Assembly (NCBI RefSeq): GCF_003315035.1
Contig: NZ_QNRE01000004.1
Location: forward strand, 124,001-188,000
From: Nocardia puris
Lineage (GTDB): Bacteria; Actinomycetota; Actinomycetes; Mycobacteriales; Mycobacteriaceae
Direction: 5' to 3'
Length of the DNA stretch: 64,000 nucleotides
A program made the position numbers and the translations under genes. The first letter of the stretch is position 1. Each line of letters begins with the position of its first letter. The notes below the pieces were generated by a model. That model had not been told where the DNA came from, did no database searches, and worked only from the letters and a program-made list of their open reading frames with translations. This document shows positions 54,025 to 62,085 of the stretch, in pieces.

Positions 54025-54822
54025 TCACGCGTTGACGGGGATCGCGGTCACCACCTCGCGCTCGTTCTCCGGCAGGTAGTGCACCTGGAGGATGCGGCCG
54101 ACCTGCACGTTCCCGATCGCGGCCGGCGGCAGGAACTTCTCGGAGCGGGTGGCGAAGGTGCTGCCGTCGGGCCTGGTCACCACCAGGTCCAGCTCGACCT
54201 TGGTGTGGCCGTCGCGGATCTCGCCGGGCACCGAGAGCGCCCGAACCACCGCCTGCGCCGCCACGCCCCGCGCCACGATGTCGAGCTTGGCCTTCGTGGT
54301 GAAGCCCTTGCGGATCATGGATTCGTTCATGGCCCGCTGGGCCGCGACGGCATCGCCGGACATGTCGATCTCCACCCGGTCGGTGCGGCCGGGCAGATAG
54401 CGCACGGGCAGCACCACACCGGGCCGCAGCAGCGACAGCTCGGTGAGCGGCACGATCTTCTTCGCGGACGACTCGAAGACCTTCCCGTCGGCCGTCTCGA
54501 CGGAGAACTCGATCAGCACCTGCGGCTGGTCGTTGAGCCGTACGCCGGTCTGCTGGAACGATTTCACGGTGCCGATGCCCATCGGCGCGTTGCGGAACTC
54601 ACCGGAATTGCGGCCGGTCATCGCCGACCCGATCCCCTCGCCGGTGAACGCGAACACGAAGATCAGCAGCATGAACGCGAGCATCGGCAGGACCATCAGG
54701 CCGTTCGCCCAGGCGCCGGAGTCGTAGGGGCCGGACGGTTCGTAGGTGAGGCCGTGCCAGAGGTAGGCGCCGACGGCGAGCACGGCGATGGCTACGGTGG
54801 TGAGGCGGACATTGCGGATCAT
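54025..54822 (-). CDS. two-TM membrane protein with duplicated beta domain
   Basis: 265 aa. GGGAGCG precedes the ATG. Two membrane helices at residues 6-25 and 42-62 (LMVLPMLAFMLLIFVFAFTG). The rest holds two similar beta-rich units. The first runs from IGTVKSFQQTGVRLNDQPQVLIEFSVETADGKVF to a PVRYLPG segment. The second runs from AQAVVRALSVPGEIRDGHTKVELDLVV to VHYLPEN. This duplicated 'VxYLP' fold recalls DUF3592-type domains. Function unknown. LpqH lies about 95 nt upstream on the same strand. Confidence 0.7.
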   Translation of the reverse strand: MIRNVRLTTVAIAVLAVGAYLWHGLTYEPSGPYDSGAWANGLMVLPMLAFMLLIFVFAFTGEGIGSAMTGRNSGEFRNAPMGIGTVKSFQQTGVRLNDQPQVLIEFSVETADGKVFESSAKKIVPLTELSLLRPGVVLPVRYLPGRTDRVEIDMSGDAVAAQRAMNESMIRKGFTTKAKLDIVARGVAAQAVVRALSVPGEIRDGHTKVELDLVVTRPDGSTFATRSEKFLPPAAIGNVQVGRILQVHYLPENEREVVTAIPVNA

Positions 54823-54915: not shown

Positions 54916-55452
54916 TCAGCCGCCGACGATGGTCGAGCAGGCGAAGGTGATGTCGAACGTGGCGGTCGACGGGCCGGCCATCGGGTTGGTCATGTCCGGC
55001 GCGCCGACGCCCTCGCCGGTGACCTTGAAGGTGTTGCCGTCCTTGACGACCTTCGCCGAGCCGCCGGGCTGGCCGTTGCCGTATCCCACGGCGTAGGGCA
55101 GGCCCGACGAGCCGCCCTTGCTGCCCGCGATGCCGACCGCCTGCACAGTGTCGTCGCCGGTGAGAGTGGCGCTGACCGAGAGCTGGCCGTAGGTGGCGTT
55201 GTCGTTGTCGGTGAGGGCCAGCGCCAGCGTGTCGCCCTGCTTGGCGCAGGTGGTGTCGAAGCTGCCCGCGAGCTCCTTGCCGTCGACCAGCGCCACGGAG
55301 CCGCCGCCCGACGGGGCGGCCGCCGCGCTGGTGCCGGGGGCCGAGGTGGCGGGGGCGGCGCTGTCGGAATCGTCGCCGCAGGCGCCGACGAACGCGGTGA
55401 GCGCGACGGCGGCGAGGGTGGCGGCTCCGGCGCGGAAGACGGTGGTGTTCAT
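54916..55452 (-). CDS. lpqH: LpqH (19-kDa antigen)-family lipoprotein
   Basis: 178 aa, AAGGAG before the ATG. Lipoprotein signal ALTAFVGACGDD, with the acylated Cys at about residue 25. An Ala/Ser/Gly/Pro spacer follows. The C-terminal domain has the family features: VALVDGKELAGSFDTTCAKQGDTLALAL, VSATLTGDDTVQAVGI, NTFKVTGEGVG and a final Cys (FDITFACSTIVGG) for the conserved disulfide. Surface-exposed in mycobacteria and Nocardia and recognised by TLR2. No nearby gene explains its function. Confidence 0.87.
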   Translation of the reverse strand: MNTTVFRAGAATLAAVALTAFVGACGDDSDSAAPATSAPGTSAAAAPSGGGSVALVDGKELAGSFDTTCAKQGDTLALALTDNDNATYGQLSVSATLTGDDTVQAVGIAGSKGGSSGLPYAVGYGNGQPGGSAKVVKDGNTFKVTGEGVGAPDMTNPMAGPSTATFDITFACSTIVGG

Positions 55453-55586
55453 GGTGGTGCTCCTTCGTTTCTCGGTGATGCGGCCCGTTGCTGGGGCGGC
55501 CTGAGAGAAACGTAGGAACGGCGCCCGGCCTACCGATCCCAGGTTTGCGCGTTCCGTCGCGGCGGCGGTGGCGTTAACCTGGCACG

Positions 55587-57209
55587 ATGCGACGACCGCG
55601 CGCCATGGTGCTGGACGAGGTGTGGCGCGGTCTGGACGGTGTCGAAGCGCTCAGCGGCCCACACGGCGGTCCGCTGCGCCGCACGGTGAAACTCGTGCTG
55701 GACCCGCTGGTCATCCGGCCGGTGCGACACCCGGCGTGCGCGGGTCCGCTGATCGGCGCCGACGGCGCGACGCTGCTGGCGAGCCTGGTCCACGCGCACG
55801 CCGACGCGCTGCGCGCCACGGCGGCGTGGTTCACGCTGCTCAAGCAGGTGCGGCGCGGGTTGCGGGTCACCGAGGGGAATCCGCAGGACCTGTACTTCCA
55901 GCGCTGCTTCGAGCTGGCCGTCACGGCGGGGCATCCGGATCCGGCGCGCGACCGCCCGCGCGCCGAGGCGGCGTTGCGCGACATCCACTCGTTCGCCGCC
56001 GGGCGCACGACGCAGGCGCTGAAGGACCATCTCACCGATGCCGAACGGGCCGAACGGCTTTCGGCGTTGATCGCGGTGGCGTGGGGAAGGCGGCCCGGTG
56101 CTGTCGCGGGGCGGGAGTTCGCGTTCGCACCGCTGCTGGAAGCGTGCGTGAGTGGGGATGGTGGTGAGCTGTTCCGGCGGCTCGTCGCGTCCAATGCGGG
56201 TACACACACCGGGATCTCGCTGTGGTACCGCGAGAAGGATTGCGGTGCCTTCGATTTGGGGCTCACCGAGCACCCGTTGCCGCAGCCGCCGCGGCTCGGT
56301 GCGTCGGCCTCCACCGCCGACCTCGGGTTACCGTTCGATCGCACCGTGTACGAGCGGGTCTTCACGGTGTTGCAGGCGTCTACCGAACGGGCCGAGCTGC
56401 CCGCGATCCCCGATCTGGTGACCGACGAGATCGCCCGCAGCTGTGCGCCGTGGGCGCTGCTGGACGAGACGCTGCGCGTGGTGGCGAGCGCGGGAGTCGC
56501 GTTGGCGCTGGGTCTTTCGCCGATCGTGGGGGCGGAGGGGATGTCTGACGCGGCGCGCAGGGAGCATCGGAGCGGCGGTCCGCGGGCGCGAGGTCACGAG
56601 TCCGGCTCGGACCCGCGGCATGCCGTAGCCGGCGGGCGGGTGACTGCCGAGGCCAGCTCGCATCGCGAGTTCTCGGGCGAGCGCCGGAGGGAGGTCGGGG
56701 TGGCGAGTCTCGCGTCGGCCGGCACGGGCGCCGACAGCGCGGTCCGCGCCAGGGAGGGCGCGCCGCACACCCGAGCGGTGGCAGTCGATACCGGTGCGAG
56801 TGCACCCCATACCGGAGTCGTCGGCTCGCGGGATTCGGGTCCGGACGGTGTCGGGCCCGAGCGTTCGAGCGGGGAGACGGCCGCGCATCGGGTCGTGAAT
56901 GCCCGGTGGCGGCGGGAGGCCTATGTGTTGCAGGCGCGGCGGTTGGTGGTGAGCGGAGCCGAGGTCGAGGGGCCGCTCGGGGCGATAGCCGAGGAGTTGC
57001 GGACGCCGTGGCGGCCGTATCTGCGCAGGCTGTGGGTGCGGCTGCACGGGCGGGATGTGCGCGGTGCGCCGGCGGACGAGCCGGGCGAGCTGTGGGACCT
57101 CCTCGACGGCGTGGCGCGCTCGGTGATGCTCGATCACCGCACCCGCGTGCGCAAGGCGCTCAGTGTGCGGGCGGCGGAGCCGGGCGCGGCGGAATCGAGG
57201 GCGAGCTGA
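55587..57209 (+). CDS. CHAT-operon protein A, family unknown
   Basis: 540 aa, not recognised. TAACCT lies 6 nt before the ATG, so the operon mRNA is probably leaderless. Residues 1-315 are mainly helical with a compact hydrophobic pattern (GATLLASLVHAHADALRATAAWFTLLK; FQRCFELAVTAGHPDPARD; PIPDLVTDEIARSCAPWALLDETLRVV-like). Residues about 316-435 are a low-complexity Gly/Ser/Arg linker. Residues 440-540 form a second conserved helical block (RREAYVLQARRLVVSGAEVEGPLG; ELWDLLDGVARSVMLDHRTRVRKAL). No Walker, nuclease, protease or membrane motif. Its stop overlaps the start of B (TGATG). Likely a scaffold or target-recognition subunit of the CHAT system, by context only. Confidence 0.8.
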   Translation: MRRPRAMVLDEVWRGLDGVEALSGPHGGPLRRTVKLVLDPLVIRPVRHPACAGPLIGADGATLLASLVHAHADALRATAAWFTLLKQVRRGLRVTEGNPQDLYFQRCFELAVTAGHPDPARDRPRAEAALRDIHSFAAGRTTQALKDHLTDAERAERLSALIAVAWGRRPGAVAGREFAFAPLLEACVSGDGGELFRRLVASNAGTHTGISLWYREKDCGAFDLGLTEHPLPQPPRLGASASTADLGLPFDRTVYERVFTVLQASTERAELPAIPDLVTDEIARSCAPWALLDETLRVVASAGVALALGLSPIVGAEGMSDAARREHRSGGPRARGHESGSDPRHAVAGGRVTAEASSHREFSGERRREVGVASLASAGTGADSAVRAREGAPHTRAVAVDTGASAPHTGVVGSRDSGPDGVGPERSSGETAAHRVVNARWRREAYVLQARRLVVSGAEVEGPLGAIAEELRTPWRPYLRRLWVRLHGRDVRGAPADEPGELWDLLDGVARSVMLDHRTRVRKALSVRAAEPGAAESRAS

Positions 57210-58840
57210 TGGAAGTGCGGGTCCGCGTACTCACCGACGGGTCGATCGCCATCGCCCCGGCCGGCGCCCCCACCGTGCTCGACGACGCCCCGGCCCCCGA
57301 CACGGCGGTCTTGGAGGTAGCGGGCGGCCACCTGACCTGGAGTCTCCTTGCCGGCCAACGCATCCCGGCCGCCGTCCTGGACAACGCCGACGCCGCCCAG
57401 GACTGGTTGTGGGCCCTGTACGGAGAACGCGTGGCCGTCGTGATCGGCGAACTCTCCGCCCCGACAGGGGATTCCGGAGGACCGGGCGATGGTGGGGCAC
57501 CGTCCAGCGCCGGCATCCGGACCACCGAGCCCGGCAGTTCCGCCGCCGACGGCGGAGGCATCGGGCAGACCAGTGTCGGCGGAACAGACCGGTTCGAGAT
57601 TGGCGCGGCCACGCGCCCGCGCGGTGGTGCGAGTCCACTCGGCGCCGACGACCATGCCGGCGAGAACGGCGGCATTACAGCTGGAGGTGGTGTGGAACCA
57701 CCGCCCGACGACGACGTCGACGCAGCCGCCAGCGGAACGACCGAGCCCAGCGGCGCGACGGACCGGTTCGGCACCGGCCGGGCCATGCGCCCGCGCAGCG
57801 GTGCCACCGCGTCCAGTGGGACGGCTCCGCTCGGCGACGATGACAGCACCGCCAAGGTCGACGGCGGCGCGACCGACCCCGGCGACAGCGTGGTCGAGAG
57901 CCGCGACAGGGCGACGTCCAGCGCTCACCTCGATACGGCTGACGTCGCGAGGTCCGGTAGCGCTCCGGGCGAAGGCGGGGCCGCACTCGGCGATGGCAAC
58001 GCGGCCGGGTCTGGTGGGGGTAACGCGGAGTCGGTCGTCGCGCCGGGCGTTCACGGATCGGCGGACACGTCCGGCACCGAGGCGAACGGCCCGGCCGTCG
58101 CGATCGATCTGCTGGTCGAACCCGCGCTGCCCGAGGTGGTGGGGCGGGCGTGGCGGTTGGCGTACGCGCACTGGGCGGCGCGGTGGTGGCCGGCGTCGAC
58201 GGTGGATGGGATTCCGGCGTTGGATCAGGGGTTGCTCGCACGGGAGATCGCGACGTTGACCGAGGAGTGCGAGCTGCTCGTGGACGGCGCGGATGCGGAA
58301 GTTGCAACGGAAGACGTTGTGGCCGAACCACTGTCGGCCAGGGCCGAGGATTACGCGCTGGCGGCTGGTGGTGCGCGCGGCGGTGGGCTGGCGTTCGGGC
58401 GCGGGATCGGCGGGTGGGATTGGTGGCGCTGCCCGCCGGGACTGGTGGATGCGTCCGAGCGGGCGGTCTCGTGGGATTTGAGCCGGGAGGCGGGCGCGAC
58501 CGTCGCGCGGGTTCAGGTCGTCGCGGCACCCACGCTGACCTCCGCGCCGGACCATCTGCGCCCCCGCGCGGCGTTCACGACTCCGGCGGGAAACGTGACC
58601 GCCGACCTCACCCTGCGCGGCGACACCTGGTACGGCGAAACGCCCCTCCCCGCCGACTCGGTCGACACCGTCGAGGTGTACGTCCCGGGCGTCGGCGCGA
58701 CCACCCGCACCGATCCCGCACTCCGGCAACGCATCCGGGATTTCGCTACCACCCGCGTGCGCCGGGCGAGTGCGCCGGACGACGCGGACCCGCCCCTGCT
58801 CGCGGAAATCGCCGCCGCCGCAGGCGAATCGGACTTCTGA
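57209..58840 (+). CDS. CHAT-operon protein B, family unknown
   Basis: 543 aa, ATG overlapping the A stop. A beta-rich N-terminal domain, residues 1-75 (VRVLTDGSIAIAPAG; TAVLEVAGGHLTWSLLAG), is joined by a Gly/Asp/Ser/Thr-rich linker of about 210 residues to a C-terminal domain, residues 290-543. The latter has a helical part (ALPEVVGRAWRLAYAHWAARWWPA) and a beta-rich part with Trp-rich GIGGWDWWRCPPG and TLRGDTWYGETPLP. The N-terminal part with its 'DGS' turn resembles small beta modules but no family can be named. The stop is 1 nt before the TPR gene start. Probably a partner of A and of the TPR-CHAT pair. Confidence 0.8.
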   Translation: MEVRVRVLTDGSIAIAPAGAPTVLDDAPAPDTAVLEVAGGHLTWSLLAGQRIPAAVLDNADAAQDWLWALYGERVAVVIGELSAPTGDSGGPGDGGAPSSAGIRTTEPGSSAADGGGIGQTSVGGTDRFEIGAATRPRGGASPLGADDHAGENGGITAGGGVEPPPDDDVDAAASGTTEPSGATDRFGTGRAMRPRSGATASSGTAPLGDDDSTAKVDGGATDPGDSVVESRDRATSSAHLDTADVARSGSAPGEGGAALGDGNAAGSGGGNAESVVAPGVHGSADTSGTEANGPAVAIDLLVEPALPEVVGRAWRLAYAHWAARWWPASTVDGIPALDQGLLAREIATLTEECELLVDGADAEVATEDVVAEPLSARAEDYALAAGGARGGGLAFGRGIGGWDWWRCPPGLVDASERAVSWDLSREAGATVARVQVVAAPTLTSAPDHLRPRAAFTTPAGNVTADLTLRGDTWYGETPLPADSVDTVEVYVPGVGATTRTDPALRQRIRDFATTRVRRASAPDDADPPLLAEIAAAAGESDF

Positions 58841-58841
58841 T

Positions 58842-60365
58842 ATGGCGCAGATTCCCGAGAACTCCCCACCCGGCCTGGAACTCCTCTACGAGGGCGCCGC
58901 CGCGCATCAGCGCGGTGACGTGGTGGAAGCATTGCGCATCTTCGAGCACGCCGCGCGCACCACCGAAGGCGGGGTGCGGGTGAGCGCGCTGATCAACGCG
59001 GCGAGCATGTGCGACGAGTTGGGCGAGCACGCGCGGGCGATCGCCATGTTCCGGGAAGCTCTGGCGCAGATCCCCGAGGACGCCGTGGAGAAGCGCGTAT
59101 CGACGCTGATCAACTACTCGCAGGCGCTCCAGCACGTCGGCGAGCTGGACGAGGCGCAGGACGCGCTCGAGCGGGGCTACGCCGATCTGGCTACGCACCC
59201 GGATCTGGTGGCGCTGCGCATTCCGTGCCTGCTCTCGCTCACCGCCGTCGCGTTCCATCGCGCGCAGTGGTTGCGCGTGATCGACCTCGCCACCGAATCC
59301 CTGGATCTGGCCGACCGTTTCGCGCCGGAACTGCGCGCGCATCCGCTGATGAACCTGGCGGGCGCGTATTTCGAGACCGGACGGCGCGAGCTCGGTCTCG
59401 ACTTCGCCACCCAGGCGCTGGCGGCGTTCGAAGCGGCGGGCGACGTGAACGGCGTCGCGGAGACCAAGCAGAACCTCGCGGTGCTGTACACGCGGGTCAA
59501 CAGGTTCGACGAGGCGGAGGCGCCGCTGCGGGCCAGCCAGGAGTACTTCGAGCAGGCCGGGCTCGGCTACCGGGCGGGTGTGGGGCTCAAGACGCTGGGG
59601 TTTCTCGCCGAGGGCCGCGGCGATCTCGACGGCGCGGGCGAACTGTACCGGCGCAGTCTCGACTACTTCACCGAATCGGGGGCCGCGCTGGACGTGGCCG
59701 CCGTCCAGACACGCTTGGCCACACTAGAATTCGCCCACGGCCGCCTCGCCGAGGGCCGAGAACTGCTCGACACGGCGTTCCGGGCCTACGCCCAGCGCGG
59801 GCTCGGATTGCATTGCGCCCAGGTCGATTTCTGGCACGCGACTCTGCTGGAGATGGTGGTCGACCACATCGAGGGCACACCGCCCGCCGAACTCCTCACC
59901 CTCGGCCGCGACGTCGCCGTGACGGCCGCGATCGCCATCGACGCCGTGCGATACACGCTGCCGGGCGGCGGGCAGCGCGACCAGTGGAACCGCGAGATCG
60001 CCGACCCCGCCACGCGTCTGGCCTTCCGGTTCGCCTACCTGTGCGGCGACGCCCAGCTGATCGTGGACCTGGTCGAAACCCACTGCGCCGGAACCACACT
60101 CGACATGGACCGCGCCGCACGCCCCGCTCCACCGCGCCTACCCCTCGAACCCCTCACACCCACGGAGTCGCACGCCGACACCGGCCCGGCCCTGCGCTTG
60201 GGCTCCGCGCTCGCCCACGTCGCCGCCGAAGCCGGCCTCCCCGTCACCCCACCCCCGCGCCTGGCCGTTGCCCCGGACGGCCACATCGCTCTGGCGGATT
60301 ACATCACCGCCGCCGAACAACGCTACGGCCGCACCGTGCGAGAGGACCGGGTGCTGCCGGTATGA
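58842..60365 (+). CDS. TPR repeat protein of the CHAT operon
   Basis: 507 aa. Tandem TPR helices from residue 10 to about 400, for example GAAAHQRGDVVEALRIFEHAA, CDELGEHARAIAMFREAL, LQHVGELDEAQDALERGY, YFETGRRELGLDFATQAL, YTRVNRFDEAEAPLRAS and LAEGRGDLDGAGELYRRSL. A C-terminal tail of about 100 residues is Pro/Ala/Arg-rich and ends in VREDRVLPV. TPR proteins are the usual activators and inhibitors of CHAT peptidases, binding them through the superhelix. It follows B by 1 nt and precedes the CHAT gene by 21 nt, so all four are one transcript. Confidence 0.9.
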   Translation: MAQIPENSPPGLELLYEGAAAHQRGDVVEALRIFEHAARTTEGGVRVSALINAASMCDELGEHARAIAMFREALAQIPEDAVEKRVSTLINYSQALQHVGELDEAQDALERGYADLATHPDLVALRIPCLLSLTAVAFHRAQWLRVIDLATESLDLADRFAPELRAHPLMNLAGAYFETGRRELGLDFATQALAAFEAAGDVNGVAETKQNLAVLYTRVNRFDEAEAPLRASQEYFEQAGLGYRAGVGLKTLGFLAEGRGDLDGAGELYRRSLDYFTESGAALDVAAVQTRLATLEFAHGRLAEGRELLDTAFRAYAQRGLGLHCAQVDFWHATLLEMVVDHIEGTPPAELLTLGRDVAVTAAIAIDAVRYTLPGGGQRDQWNREIADPATRLAFRFAYLCGDAQLIVDLVETHCAGTTLDMDRAARPAPPRLPLEPLTPTESHADTGPALRLGSALAHVAAEAGLPVTPPPRLAVAPDGHIALADYITAAEQRYGRTVREDRVLPV

Positions 60366-60386
60366 GCAACGAAAGGTGTTGCGGGC

Positions 60387-61652
60387 GTGCCTGACACAAC
60401 CGACACCCAGCCCACCGCCATAGTGCGGATGGCCGACGCCGGCGACCTCTACATGTCCTGGCGATGGGAAGGCGACCCGGACGCGCGCGGGACCGCCATG
60501 CTGCCCGGCGCGCAGGTGGACGAGGCGGTGGCCGCGCTGGCGGCGGCACTACCCGATCCGCGCGGCGCGGACGGCCTGCGGGATTGCCTCACCACAGGCG
60601 CGTTCATGAACCGGGACGCGGAATACCACCTCGCCCAACAGCTTTCCCGTGCCCTGCTCCCCCAGGCACTCGCCGTCCAACTGCACGCGCTGCACACGCG
60701 AGGCGTGCGCCCACACCTGCGGATCCAACCGTCACCGAGGGTGGCGCAGGTGCCGTGGGAACTCCTCGCACCCGACCCGACTCTAAGGCTCCTCGACATC
60801 GCCGACGTGAGCATGCTCGCCCCGGCGGGCGTCGTGCACGCACCGGGACGGGTCGCGCGCACATGGCACACCGACCGCGAGCTGCCGGTCGTCGCCGTGC
60901 TCGACCCCCGGGTGCCCGGTTTCCGCGCGGACTCGGCGCTCGGTTCGGTGCTGGGCCGCATGGACGCCACATCACCGCTGGCCGCTCGTGTGGCCGAACA
61001 CAGTGCGCGCCAACGACTCCGGCCCGAGGTGGTCGATCCGGTCGAGGCGTTCCGCCGCACCGACCTGGACCGCGACTGGCTCTCGAAGACGTTGCGCGCC
61101 GGCGCCTCCCGGCTGATCTACGTCGGCCACGTCACGGCGGCCGCGCCGGAATCGGGGCGCAGCGAGAACGCGGAACTGCACCTCGCCTGCACCGCCGGCG
61201 CGCTCGGATTCGCCGAACCGCAGCGCACCCACCGCCCGCTCTCCGCGAAGGACCTCCTGCTCGGCACCCACACGCTGAGCGAGGAGCCCGTCGCGGGCCC
61301 CGAGCTCTGGCCGATCCCCAGCCGGGTCGCGCTCATCGCCTGCGAAAGCGGCGGCGACCTGCGGTTCACCGAGGCGCTGGGCCTGATCGCCGCCATGGTG
61401 AACGGCGGTGCCGAACTCGTCACCGCCACCCGCTGGCCGCTGCCGACCGACCTGGCGTTCCAGCGCCTGGCCGCCGTCGACGCGACACCGCTGCAAGACG
61501 TGGTCCGCGCCGTCGACACCGCCCACGACCACCCCGACCCCCTGACCACCCTCGCCGAGTGGCAACGCGCCCGCCTCACCGCGTGGCGCGAATCCGCCGC
61601 CCCGGCCGACTCACCTCTGCTCTGGTCCGCCTTCGCGACCTTCCACACCTAG
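60387..61652 (+). CDS. CHAT-domain cysteine peptidase
   Basis: 421 aa, GTG start with GAAAGG upstream. The caspase-like CHAT domain covers about residues 100-421: the family entry strand PHLRIQPSPRVAQVPWELLAPD, the catalytic His H248 in LIYVGHVTAAA, and the catalytic Cys C319 in VALIACESGG followed by the LVTATRWPLPTD strand. Both catalytic residues are intact, so it should be an active peptidase once triggered. Residues 1-95 are a separate helical/beta region of unknown role. A 10-codon frame, MSNERCCGRA, lies at the TPR/CHAT junction (60362-60394) but is probably not functional. Convergent with the His-rich gene across a strong hairpin. Confidence 0.92.
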   Translation: MPDTTDTQPTAIVRMADAGDLYMSWRWEGDPDARGTAMLPGAQVDEAVAALAAALPDPRGADGLRDCLTTGAFMNRDAEYHLAQQLSRALLPQALAVQLHALHTRGVRPHLRIQPSPRVAQVPWELLAPDPTLRLLDIADVSMLAPAGVVHAPGRVARTWHTDRELPVVAVLDPRVPGFRADSALGSVLGRMDATSPLAARVAEHSARQRLRPEVVDPVEAFRRTDLDRDWLSKTLRAGASRLIYVGHVTAAAPESGRSENAELHLACTAGALGFAEPQRTHRPLSAKDLLLGTHTLSEEPVAGPELWPIPSRVALIACESGGDLRFTEALGLIAAMVNGGAELVTATRWPLPTDLAFQRLAAVDATPLQDVVRAVDTAHDHPDPLTTLAEWQRARLTAWRESAAPADSPLLWSAFATFHT

Positions 61653-61709: not shown

Positions 61710-62006
61710 TCAGTGCTCGTCGTAGTGACCGTCGTGCGGGGCGTGGCGGTGGCCGTCGTGGATGTAGTCGACGTGGTCGCCGTGCGGGACCGCGACGTGC
61801 CCACAGCCCTCGCCGTGCACGTGGTCGTGGGCCGTGTGTTCGGTGTGACCCGCGGATTCGCACTCGTCGAAGTGGCCGTCGTGGGCGCGGTGCAGATGAC
61901 CGTCGTGGACGTAGTCCACGTGATCGCCGTGCGGCACCGCCACGTGGCCGCACCCGGGTCCGTGCTCGTGCGCGTGACCGGTGTGCTCGAGGTGTGCTGT
62001 GGTCAT
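61710..62006 (-). CDS. His-rich metal-binding protein with internal duplication
   Basis: 98 aa from the ATG at 62006, with GGAAGAAGG upstream. About a quarter of the residues are His, with many Asp and Glu. Two repeats of about 45 residues each contain GCGHVAVPHGDHVDY followed by HDGH-H...HDGHxDE. There is one Cys per repeat in the CGHVAV motif, plus one between. No signal or membrane segment. Such proteins bind Zn, Ni or Co and are usually part of ArsR- or Fur-type metal responses, as stores or chaperones. The AT-rich promoter with dyads fits metal control. No transporter partner is adjacent. Confidence 0.85.
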   Translation of the reverse strand: MTTAHLEHTGHAHEHGPGCGHVAVPHGDHVDYVHDGHLHRAHDGHFDECESAGHTEHTAHDHVHGEGCGHVAVPHGDHVDYIHDGHRHAPHDGHYDEH

Positions 62007-62049
62007 CAGAATGCCTTCTTCCAAGCCGATGGACAGGAGATCTGTGATC

Positions 62050-62085
62050 GGTAACACATTAGCGTATATGCATCAGTATAGATTG
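62050..62085 (-). promoter_or_regulatory. AT-rich promoter/operator of the His-rich gene
   Basis: About 35 nt, half A/T in an otherwise 70% GC region, with TATACT and TATACG -10-like boxes on the minus strand and overlapping dyads around ATATGCAT. Likely a metalloregulator site (ArsR/SmtB type) because of composition and the metal-binding product. No exact consensus match can be claimed. Confidence 0.4.

Follow-up and report, generated by a model that had tools for sequence, protein, structure and literature searches.

What does a caspase-like protease do in a bacterial chromosome when it is inherited together with two large proteins of no recognised family? The question is raised by a four-gene unit in a 64,000-nucleotide stretch of the Nocardia puris genome (assembly GCF_003315035.1, contig NZ_QNRE01000004.1, positions 124,001 to 188,000; the whole stretch is referred to as the window), which encodes two large proteins, A and B, a TPR-repeat protein and a CHAT peptidase. 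Most of what is known of bacterial caspase-like CHAT proteases comes from conflict systems, CRISPR among them. On the CRISPR side an example is Csx29 (PMC10028731). Here the four genes recur together in all 28 other loci of a sample drawn from the order – far beyond chance – and the inherited set suggests a widespread, unstudied proteolytic switch. The reading we favour, tentatively and at a little less than an even chance, is a regulated caspase-like proteolysis unit: a split TPR-CHAT enzyme with B as its likeliest substrate and A as scaffold, serving an envelope-linked physiological response. The unit and its surroundings are laid out in the window as follows.

55587..57209, plus strand: gene A; 540 aa, all-helical, no known family, low-complexity at ~318-430.
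57209..58840, plus strand: gene B; 543 aa, mixed alpha/beta with an Ig-like domain, conserved C-terminal tail (LLAEIAAAAGESDF), low-complexity at ~84-298.
58842..60365, plus strand: TPR-repeat protein; 507 aa, Pfam TPR_12 at 2.2e-21; candidate regulatory arm of the protease.
60387..61652, plus strand: CHAT (caspase-like) peptidase; 421 aa, GTG start, H248/C319, PF12770 at 31.5 bits.
55575..55580, plus strand: leaderless promoter of the unit; -10-like box TAACCT, at a spacing of 6 nt from the ATG of A.
54916..55452, minus strand: divergent lipoprotein, companion gene; PF05481 at 2.6e-23 and 83 bits (cut-off 23), lipobox VGAC.
54025..54822, minus strand: membrane protein, companion gene; two N-terminal hydrophobic segments, no Pfam family.

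The four genes are tightly coupled: A and B overlap in a TGATG, B and the TPR gene are separated by 1 nt, and the TPR and CHAT genes by 21 nt. In this respect the window DNA bears out the coordinates, frames and coupling proposed by an earlier reading made from the letters alone (the sequence-only reading). That reading also described A and B as two large proteins: both are present, but part of their size in the window is low-complexity sequence rich in Ala, Gly, Ser and Asp, which is shorter or missing in aligned relatives. Likewise its four-gene unit, with an active-looking CHAT and two unrecognised subunits, stands, but not its extent: in Nocardia the unit is larger, with the lipoprotein and the membrane protein travelling alongside. 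Its further proposal, a signal-gated protease with A and B as putative sensor or target subunits and a possible place among conflict systems, is conjectural.

The CHAT protein belongs by sequence to the CHAT family (PF12770), with the catalytic dyad conserved, and is predicted to be an active peptidase. Its score is 31.5 bits against a cut-off of 24 (29.6 bits in a six-frame search), and it is the sole PF12770 match at E<=0.001 in the 7.69-Mb genome. H248 and C319, both said at the outset to be kept, are invariant in 29 of 29 aligned CHAT sequences, together with V246, G247, S321, W350 and others. This conservation bears on a non-proteolytic alternative, according to which the CHAT domain is inactive and serves as a binding module within a scaffold: the modest PF12770 score would suit such a module, but the invariance of H248, C319, V246, G247 and S321 extends over several families, and we consider the alternative very improbable. 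As the CHAT profile finds zero matches at E<=10 among PDB sequences, the relation of CHAT to Csx29 rests on the family name. Second CHAT copies occur in several genomes of the window's genus, and at L163:9496-12403 (contig 10 of G021, a genome of that genus) there is a second TPR and CHAT pair that has neither A nor B matches alongside.

The TPR protein matches TPR_12 and other Pfam TPR models. In the window the TPR-CHAT architecture is divided between two adjacent, separate genes, whereas in seven loci (L048, L050, L051, L056-L059) TPR and CHAT are one fused chain; in six genomes (group g36) the TPR is the N-terminal part of such a chain, as seen by profile search. TPR and CHAT would thus appear to be two parts of one split TPR-CHAT enzyme.

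When 200 genomes of the order were searched with A by tblastn, A appeared in 29 (the window's own included), representing 7 of 60 genera and four families, and CHAT accompanies A in 28 of the 28 other loci. BLAST at 1e-3 recovered B in 24 of these and TPR in 25. A broader B profile found B in all 28 and in a Streptomyces megaplasmid (L162); by construction this profile contains 11 of the 28 order loci, none of them among the four that BLAST had missed (L040, L051, L057, L058). Since the profile fills the gaps for B, and since TPR is fused to CHAT in the six g36 genomes, all four genes are present at all 28 loci. Their order varies – A-B-TPR-CHAT, TPR-CHAT then A-B, or A-B-(TPR-CHAT) – and so do their flanks: a survey from three reference loci at 1e-8 found A in all 109 loci (TPR being detected unevenly at this threshold), with no flanking gene common to all five locus groups. 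Joint recurrence of the four across differing contexts and beyond close relatives, which the sequence-only reading named as support, is borne out.

The same association holds closer to the window. Among 84,980 species genomes, a relative of A is encoded in 479 stretches; the 80 best of them (Nocardia-type loci, the named relatives kept being Nocardia with a few Rhodococcus and Antrihabitans) carry all four genes in 77 cases, and the three misses end at contig ends. Within a phylum sample A is found in 11 of 396 genomes, all in the window's own family. Five Streptomyces megaplasmid records carry A, and the one checked (L162) has all four genes, the B profile used for the check having been built without 13 B sequences whose predicted starts were over-long.

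Genome-wide presence was assessed in the window's genus (118 genomes) by a search that scores few candidates per genome and can miss a distant homologue: A turned up in 98, CHAT in 100 and the membrane protein in 95. A is nearly always single copy, and every A-positive genome has CHAT (the CHAT matches of G593 and G670 being cut by contig ends). Two of the 118 have CHAT and the membrane protein without A; these are assemblies of 1,340 and 490 contigs, and in the former the window-type CHAT match is partial. The remaining 18 are without A, CHAT and the membrane protein. In a second, mycobacteria-like genus of the same GTDB family (g2, taken as Mycobacterium by inference), 74 of 118 genomes have A and CHAT, 42 have neither, two have A only and none has CHAT without A. 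One of the A-only genomes is an 84%-complete assembly and the other holds a 51-position remnant; the A match falls into two or three pieces in four g2 genomes, which may reflect decay or assembly breaks. A is thus almost never seen without CHAT.

A further regularity concerns the divergently transcribed companions and the promoter from which the unit would be read. A TANNNT box ends exactly 6 nt 5' of the chosen ATG of A in 80 of 81 loci, which are related to each other and hence not independent; the background rate of TANNNT with a spacing of 4-9 nt, at random positions of the same loci, is 0.56%. The sole miss (L118) is a start placed downstream by the script, and by eye an upstream ATG shows the same spacing. 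Conservation thus supports the leaderless promoter first proposed from the window alone. A T-rich block (gtttt/acttt) was seen by eye, uncounted, ~25-30 nt upstream of the -10 box in many promoters (L071-L150; at ~55542 in the window). The lipoprotein gene starts 134 bp from the start of A in the window, and the median over 75 loci is 133 (the maximum, 7,029, is a mis-assignment of the start or a paralogue).

The lipoprotein, which by both profile match and lipobox belongs to the family of the Mycobacterium 19-kDa antigen (PF05481), accompanies 75 of the 80 Nocardia-type loci, with a lipobox-like motif in 70 of the 75 homologues. The membrane protein accompanies 71 of the 80; a crude hydropathy scan finds at least one hydrophobic segment in 64 of 66 homologues, one of which is weakly DUF3592-like (E 0.0047, under the cut-off). 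Across the 118 genomes of the window's genus the membrane protein and A are both present in 93, A alone in 5, the membrane protein without A in 2 and neither in 18, a tally reached partly by subtraction (three negatives are unlisted, and two of the five A-only genomes were so derived). Within the genus this protein family without a Pfam entry tracks A almost perfectly. At 16 g2 loci the lipoprotein is present in all 16 and the membrane protein in nine, in a different arrangement. The unit is probably tied to envelope physiology. Of eight flanking proteins in the window scanned with Pfam, five are named, all of them ordinary. Adjoining the operon on the minus strand (61710-62057) is a gene for a small protein, rich in His and likely metal-binding, in which a block (CGHVAVPHGDHVDY[VI]HDGH) is duplicated.

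A homologous CHAT also occurs in a second, sporadic branch, where it lies beside two large unrecognised proteins, A' and B', with TPR genes nearby. This branch was found on Rhodococcus plasmids and in 7 of 251 genomes of the family (loci L160, on NZ_CP024892.1, L161, on NC_010850.1, and L182-L188). CHAT and TPR were detected in six of the seven genome loci and neither in L184; on two Rhodococcus plasmids NYN-domain genes lie near the unit. B and B' are collinear over ~100 positions, a similarity that is not significant (hhalign P 0.022, probability 2.1%, the split B' of L185 being left out), and A against A' gives P 0.28 and a probability of 0.2%, the crossed controls giving P 0.28 and 0.75: the plasmid A' and B' are not established as relatives of A and B. 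The two branches are alike, then, in joining two large unrecognised proteins to homologous CHAT proteins, and in the weak collinear similarity of B and B'; they differ in that neither A' nor B' has a significant relation to its counterpart, and in that the second branch is rare and has NYN genes nearby on two plasmids. Being rare and partly plasmid-borne, the second branch shows the pattern expected of a conflict system; the window branch, nearly fixed in its genus, does not.

This contrast bears on the idea that the unit acts in anti-phage defence or abortive infection, with A and/or B sensing an invader, TPR-CHAT being unleashed, and cleavage of host proteins or of A and B halting growth. 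TPR-CHAT proteases do act in bacterial immunity (Craspase; PMC10028731), the second branch is sporadic in the manner just described, two of eight loci of the CATRA systems considered below have CHAT-like neighbours, and a few g2 genomes carry the split or fragmentary A matches noted above. Set against these, the unit is present in 98 of 118 genomes of the window's genus, nearly always in single copy; its companions are envelope-type proteins; tblastn with A against 50,697 phage records returned nothing; and PADLOC models, run on A, B, TPR and CHAT and not on the flanks, gave a weak TPR model (E 0.39) and none that qualified. The near-fixed distribution, the lack of a phage match to A and the ordinary Pfam-named flanks (five of the eight scanned) argue against a typical mobile defence system. 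We consider a defence role rather unlikely: it is less supported than the envelope-physiology reading, of which it is still a live rival.

What, then, are A and B? In Pfam the window A finds a lone sub-threshold hit (E 0.18) and B nothing; neither matches NCBIfam or PADLOC at E<=1. A Pfam scan of 21 of the 29 A sequences and of 13 B sequences (window included) gave weak, scattered matches, the best at E 0.028 and 0.016. The view that the two belong to no recognised family holds in all three databases, and its opposite – that they are ordinary metabolic proteins – is rejected, no metabolic family having appeared in the scans of the window proteins or their relatives. A and B have no detectable relation to each other.

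Structure models were made of compact Antrihabitans homologues (L143) in place of the window proteins with their inserts. The A model is almost all helical (pLDDT 83.6, pTM 0.71, from a 55-sequence alignment); that of B has an alpha/beta N-terminal part, an Ig-like sandwich at ~178-281 and C-terminal helices (pLDDT 86.8, pTM 0.85, from 51 sequences). Foldseek found no match to either model in the PDB at E<=0.001, a family missing among the listed matches not being thereby excluded, and the A model, which was the one compared with a viral structure library, found nothing there at the same threshold. A PDB sequence search gave no match for A and two chance-level matches for B; neither protein has a clear fold match. 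The best VIA Z is 4.9 for B (74 residues at 3.8 A, to a CBM48-type domain, further Ig-like entries also appearing) and 4.5 for A (101 residues at 5.0 A, viral IE1); both lie in the range of unrelated proteins and both candidates were rejected. A hydrophobic-segment scan of the four window proteins picks out a single stretch, at 296-316 of A (peak 1.96), and nothing in B, TPR or CHAT; under a stricter hydropathy cut-off 79 of 80 A homologues have none.

B closes with a helix and a tail that are both conserved. In 74 of 75 Nocardia-type loci (of 79 with B, 75 had a usable start) the last two residues are D-F or D-Y, the exception lying at a contig end; in a wider set B ends in an aromatic residue in 24 of 29 loci. 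A C-terminus that is both conserved and free suggests a docking signal. In the Csx29/Csx30 pair, where Csx29 is a TPR-CHAT protein, a substrate deprived of 20 C-terminal residues is no longer bound or cut (PMC10028731). The likeness of the B tail to Csx30 is one of analogy, not homology.

A docking tail need not belong to a substrate. CHAT might instead cut other proteins of the cell, with A and B acting as chaperone-like regulators or inhibitors: A is well conserved and all-helical, A and B stay separate genes in lineages where TPR and CHAT are fused, and the tail of B might form a stable contact with TPR, as one subunit with another. Nothing specific speaks against this arrangement, which is weakened only by the Csx29/Csx30 analogy, the operon partner there being the substrate; we judge it improbable.

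The content and inheritance of the genes are strongly supported, and the mechanism that we infer from them – regulated proteolysis by a split TPR-CHAT enzyme – would run as follows. CHAT would be the peptidase and the TPR protein its regulatory arm, either holding CHAT off or docking its partners. B would be a dedicated partner, presenting its conserved C-terminal helix and D-F/Y-COOH tail to TPR-CHAT; it is most likely the substrate, and its cleavage the putative output. A may be an obligate all-helical scaffold or adaptor. The scheme presumes that these proteins form a complex and that a trigger sets it to work; the divergently transcribed lipoprotein and membrane protein probably link it to the cell envelope, and it would likely serve a physiological response tied to the envelope, passed on with the chromosome.

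Several observations weigh against this scheme. Not every locus has the companions: of the 28 in the order sample, 18 have the lipoprotein and 13 the membrane protein, and at the six g36 loci both went undetected. B has no detectable relation to Csx30 in sequence or fold, and no cleavage site was identified. Docking by the tail is not universal either, since four of the 29 wider loci (L033-L036) are without it and B is cut short in L048. Nor is CHAT bound to A everywhere, for CHAT homologues occur away from A: G021 has its second copy, G222 and G015 have partial or weak homologues, and the plasmid branch has its own.

The distribution gives the unit its significance. In one genus of soil-dwelling and opportunistic actinomycetes a CHAT protease is close to fixation, and in a mycobacteria-like genus it is common (74 of 118 genomes); it is bound to two families without a Pfam entry or a clear match to a solved fold. 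If the unit is a physiological switch, caspase-type signalling would be testable in Rhodococcus, which is harmless and tractable, with the B tail as the hypothesis and C319A as the mutant. A more specific version – a near-core chromosomal caspase-like switch in Nocardia and mycobacteria-like actinomycetes, made of a split TPR-CHAT, a new helical scaffold (A) and a new Ig-like protein (B), in which the acidic-aromatic tail of B is the docking or substrate signal and the lipoprotein and membrane protein pair reads the state of the envelope – is doubtful as a whole; were it true, caspase-type signalling would be part of everyday physiology in these bacteria and not only a weapon. In the open-licence literature we found no paper pairing 'CHAT domain' with 'Mycobacterium' and no title describing the operon; the 2020 paper naming CATRA lay outside this search, and a prior mention is possible.

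How does the unit compare with known systems? Bacterial gasdermin-activating proteases are caspase-like or CHAT proteases that activate a partner encoded next door, and the window unit shares both features, a protease of this kind and a neighbouring partner. No gasdermin is among the top 50 rows of the PDB fold searches with the A and B models, an absence that is no proof.

Craspase (Csx29/Csx30; PMC10028731) is similar in combining TPR and CHAT with an H/C dyad, in having a partner encoded alongside, and in the importance of the C-terminus of that partner, which for the window unit is indicated only by conservation. It differs in that two genes of the window encode TPR and CHAT separately, and in that the window unit is nearly fixed in its genus; the PDB sequence searches with A and B, moreover, gave no sign of kinship with Csx30. 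Pfam scans of the four genes and the companions revealed no Cas7-11, no search aimed at Cas7-11 or CRISPR having been made.

CATRA ternary systems, called caspase-dependent in PMC8195603, are the closest theme among named actinobacterial systems. They too are actinobacterial multi-protein systems around a caspase-like protein, and two of eight loci (L166, L168) have neighbouring ORFs with a weak match to the window-type CHAT profile (E 1e-5 and 2e-6). If the unit were a divergent CATRA system, sharing the theme of a caspase-type peptidase with partners, then the signature CATRA-N protein (PF20269) might be expected nearby: it has 0 matches in the window genome, by a model that works elsewhere (7 of 148 class genomes), and is not among the Pfam matches of the 21 A or 13 B members. 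The A and B profiles, moreover, are not homologous at profile level to the eight CATRA proteins (probability 0.1%). On these two grounds identity with CATRA was rejected, and even a divergent CATRA system is extremely unlikely. As judged from its proteins, the window unit is a member of the CHAT family that is predicted to work like a TPR-CHAT system, and not a CATRA system.

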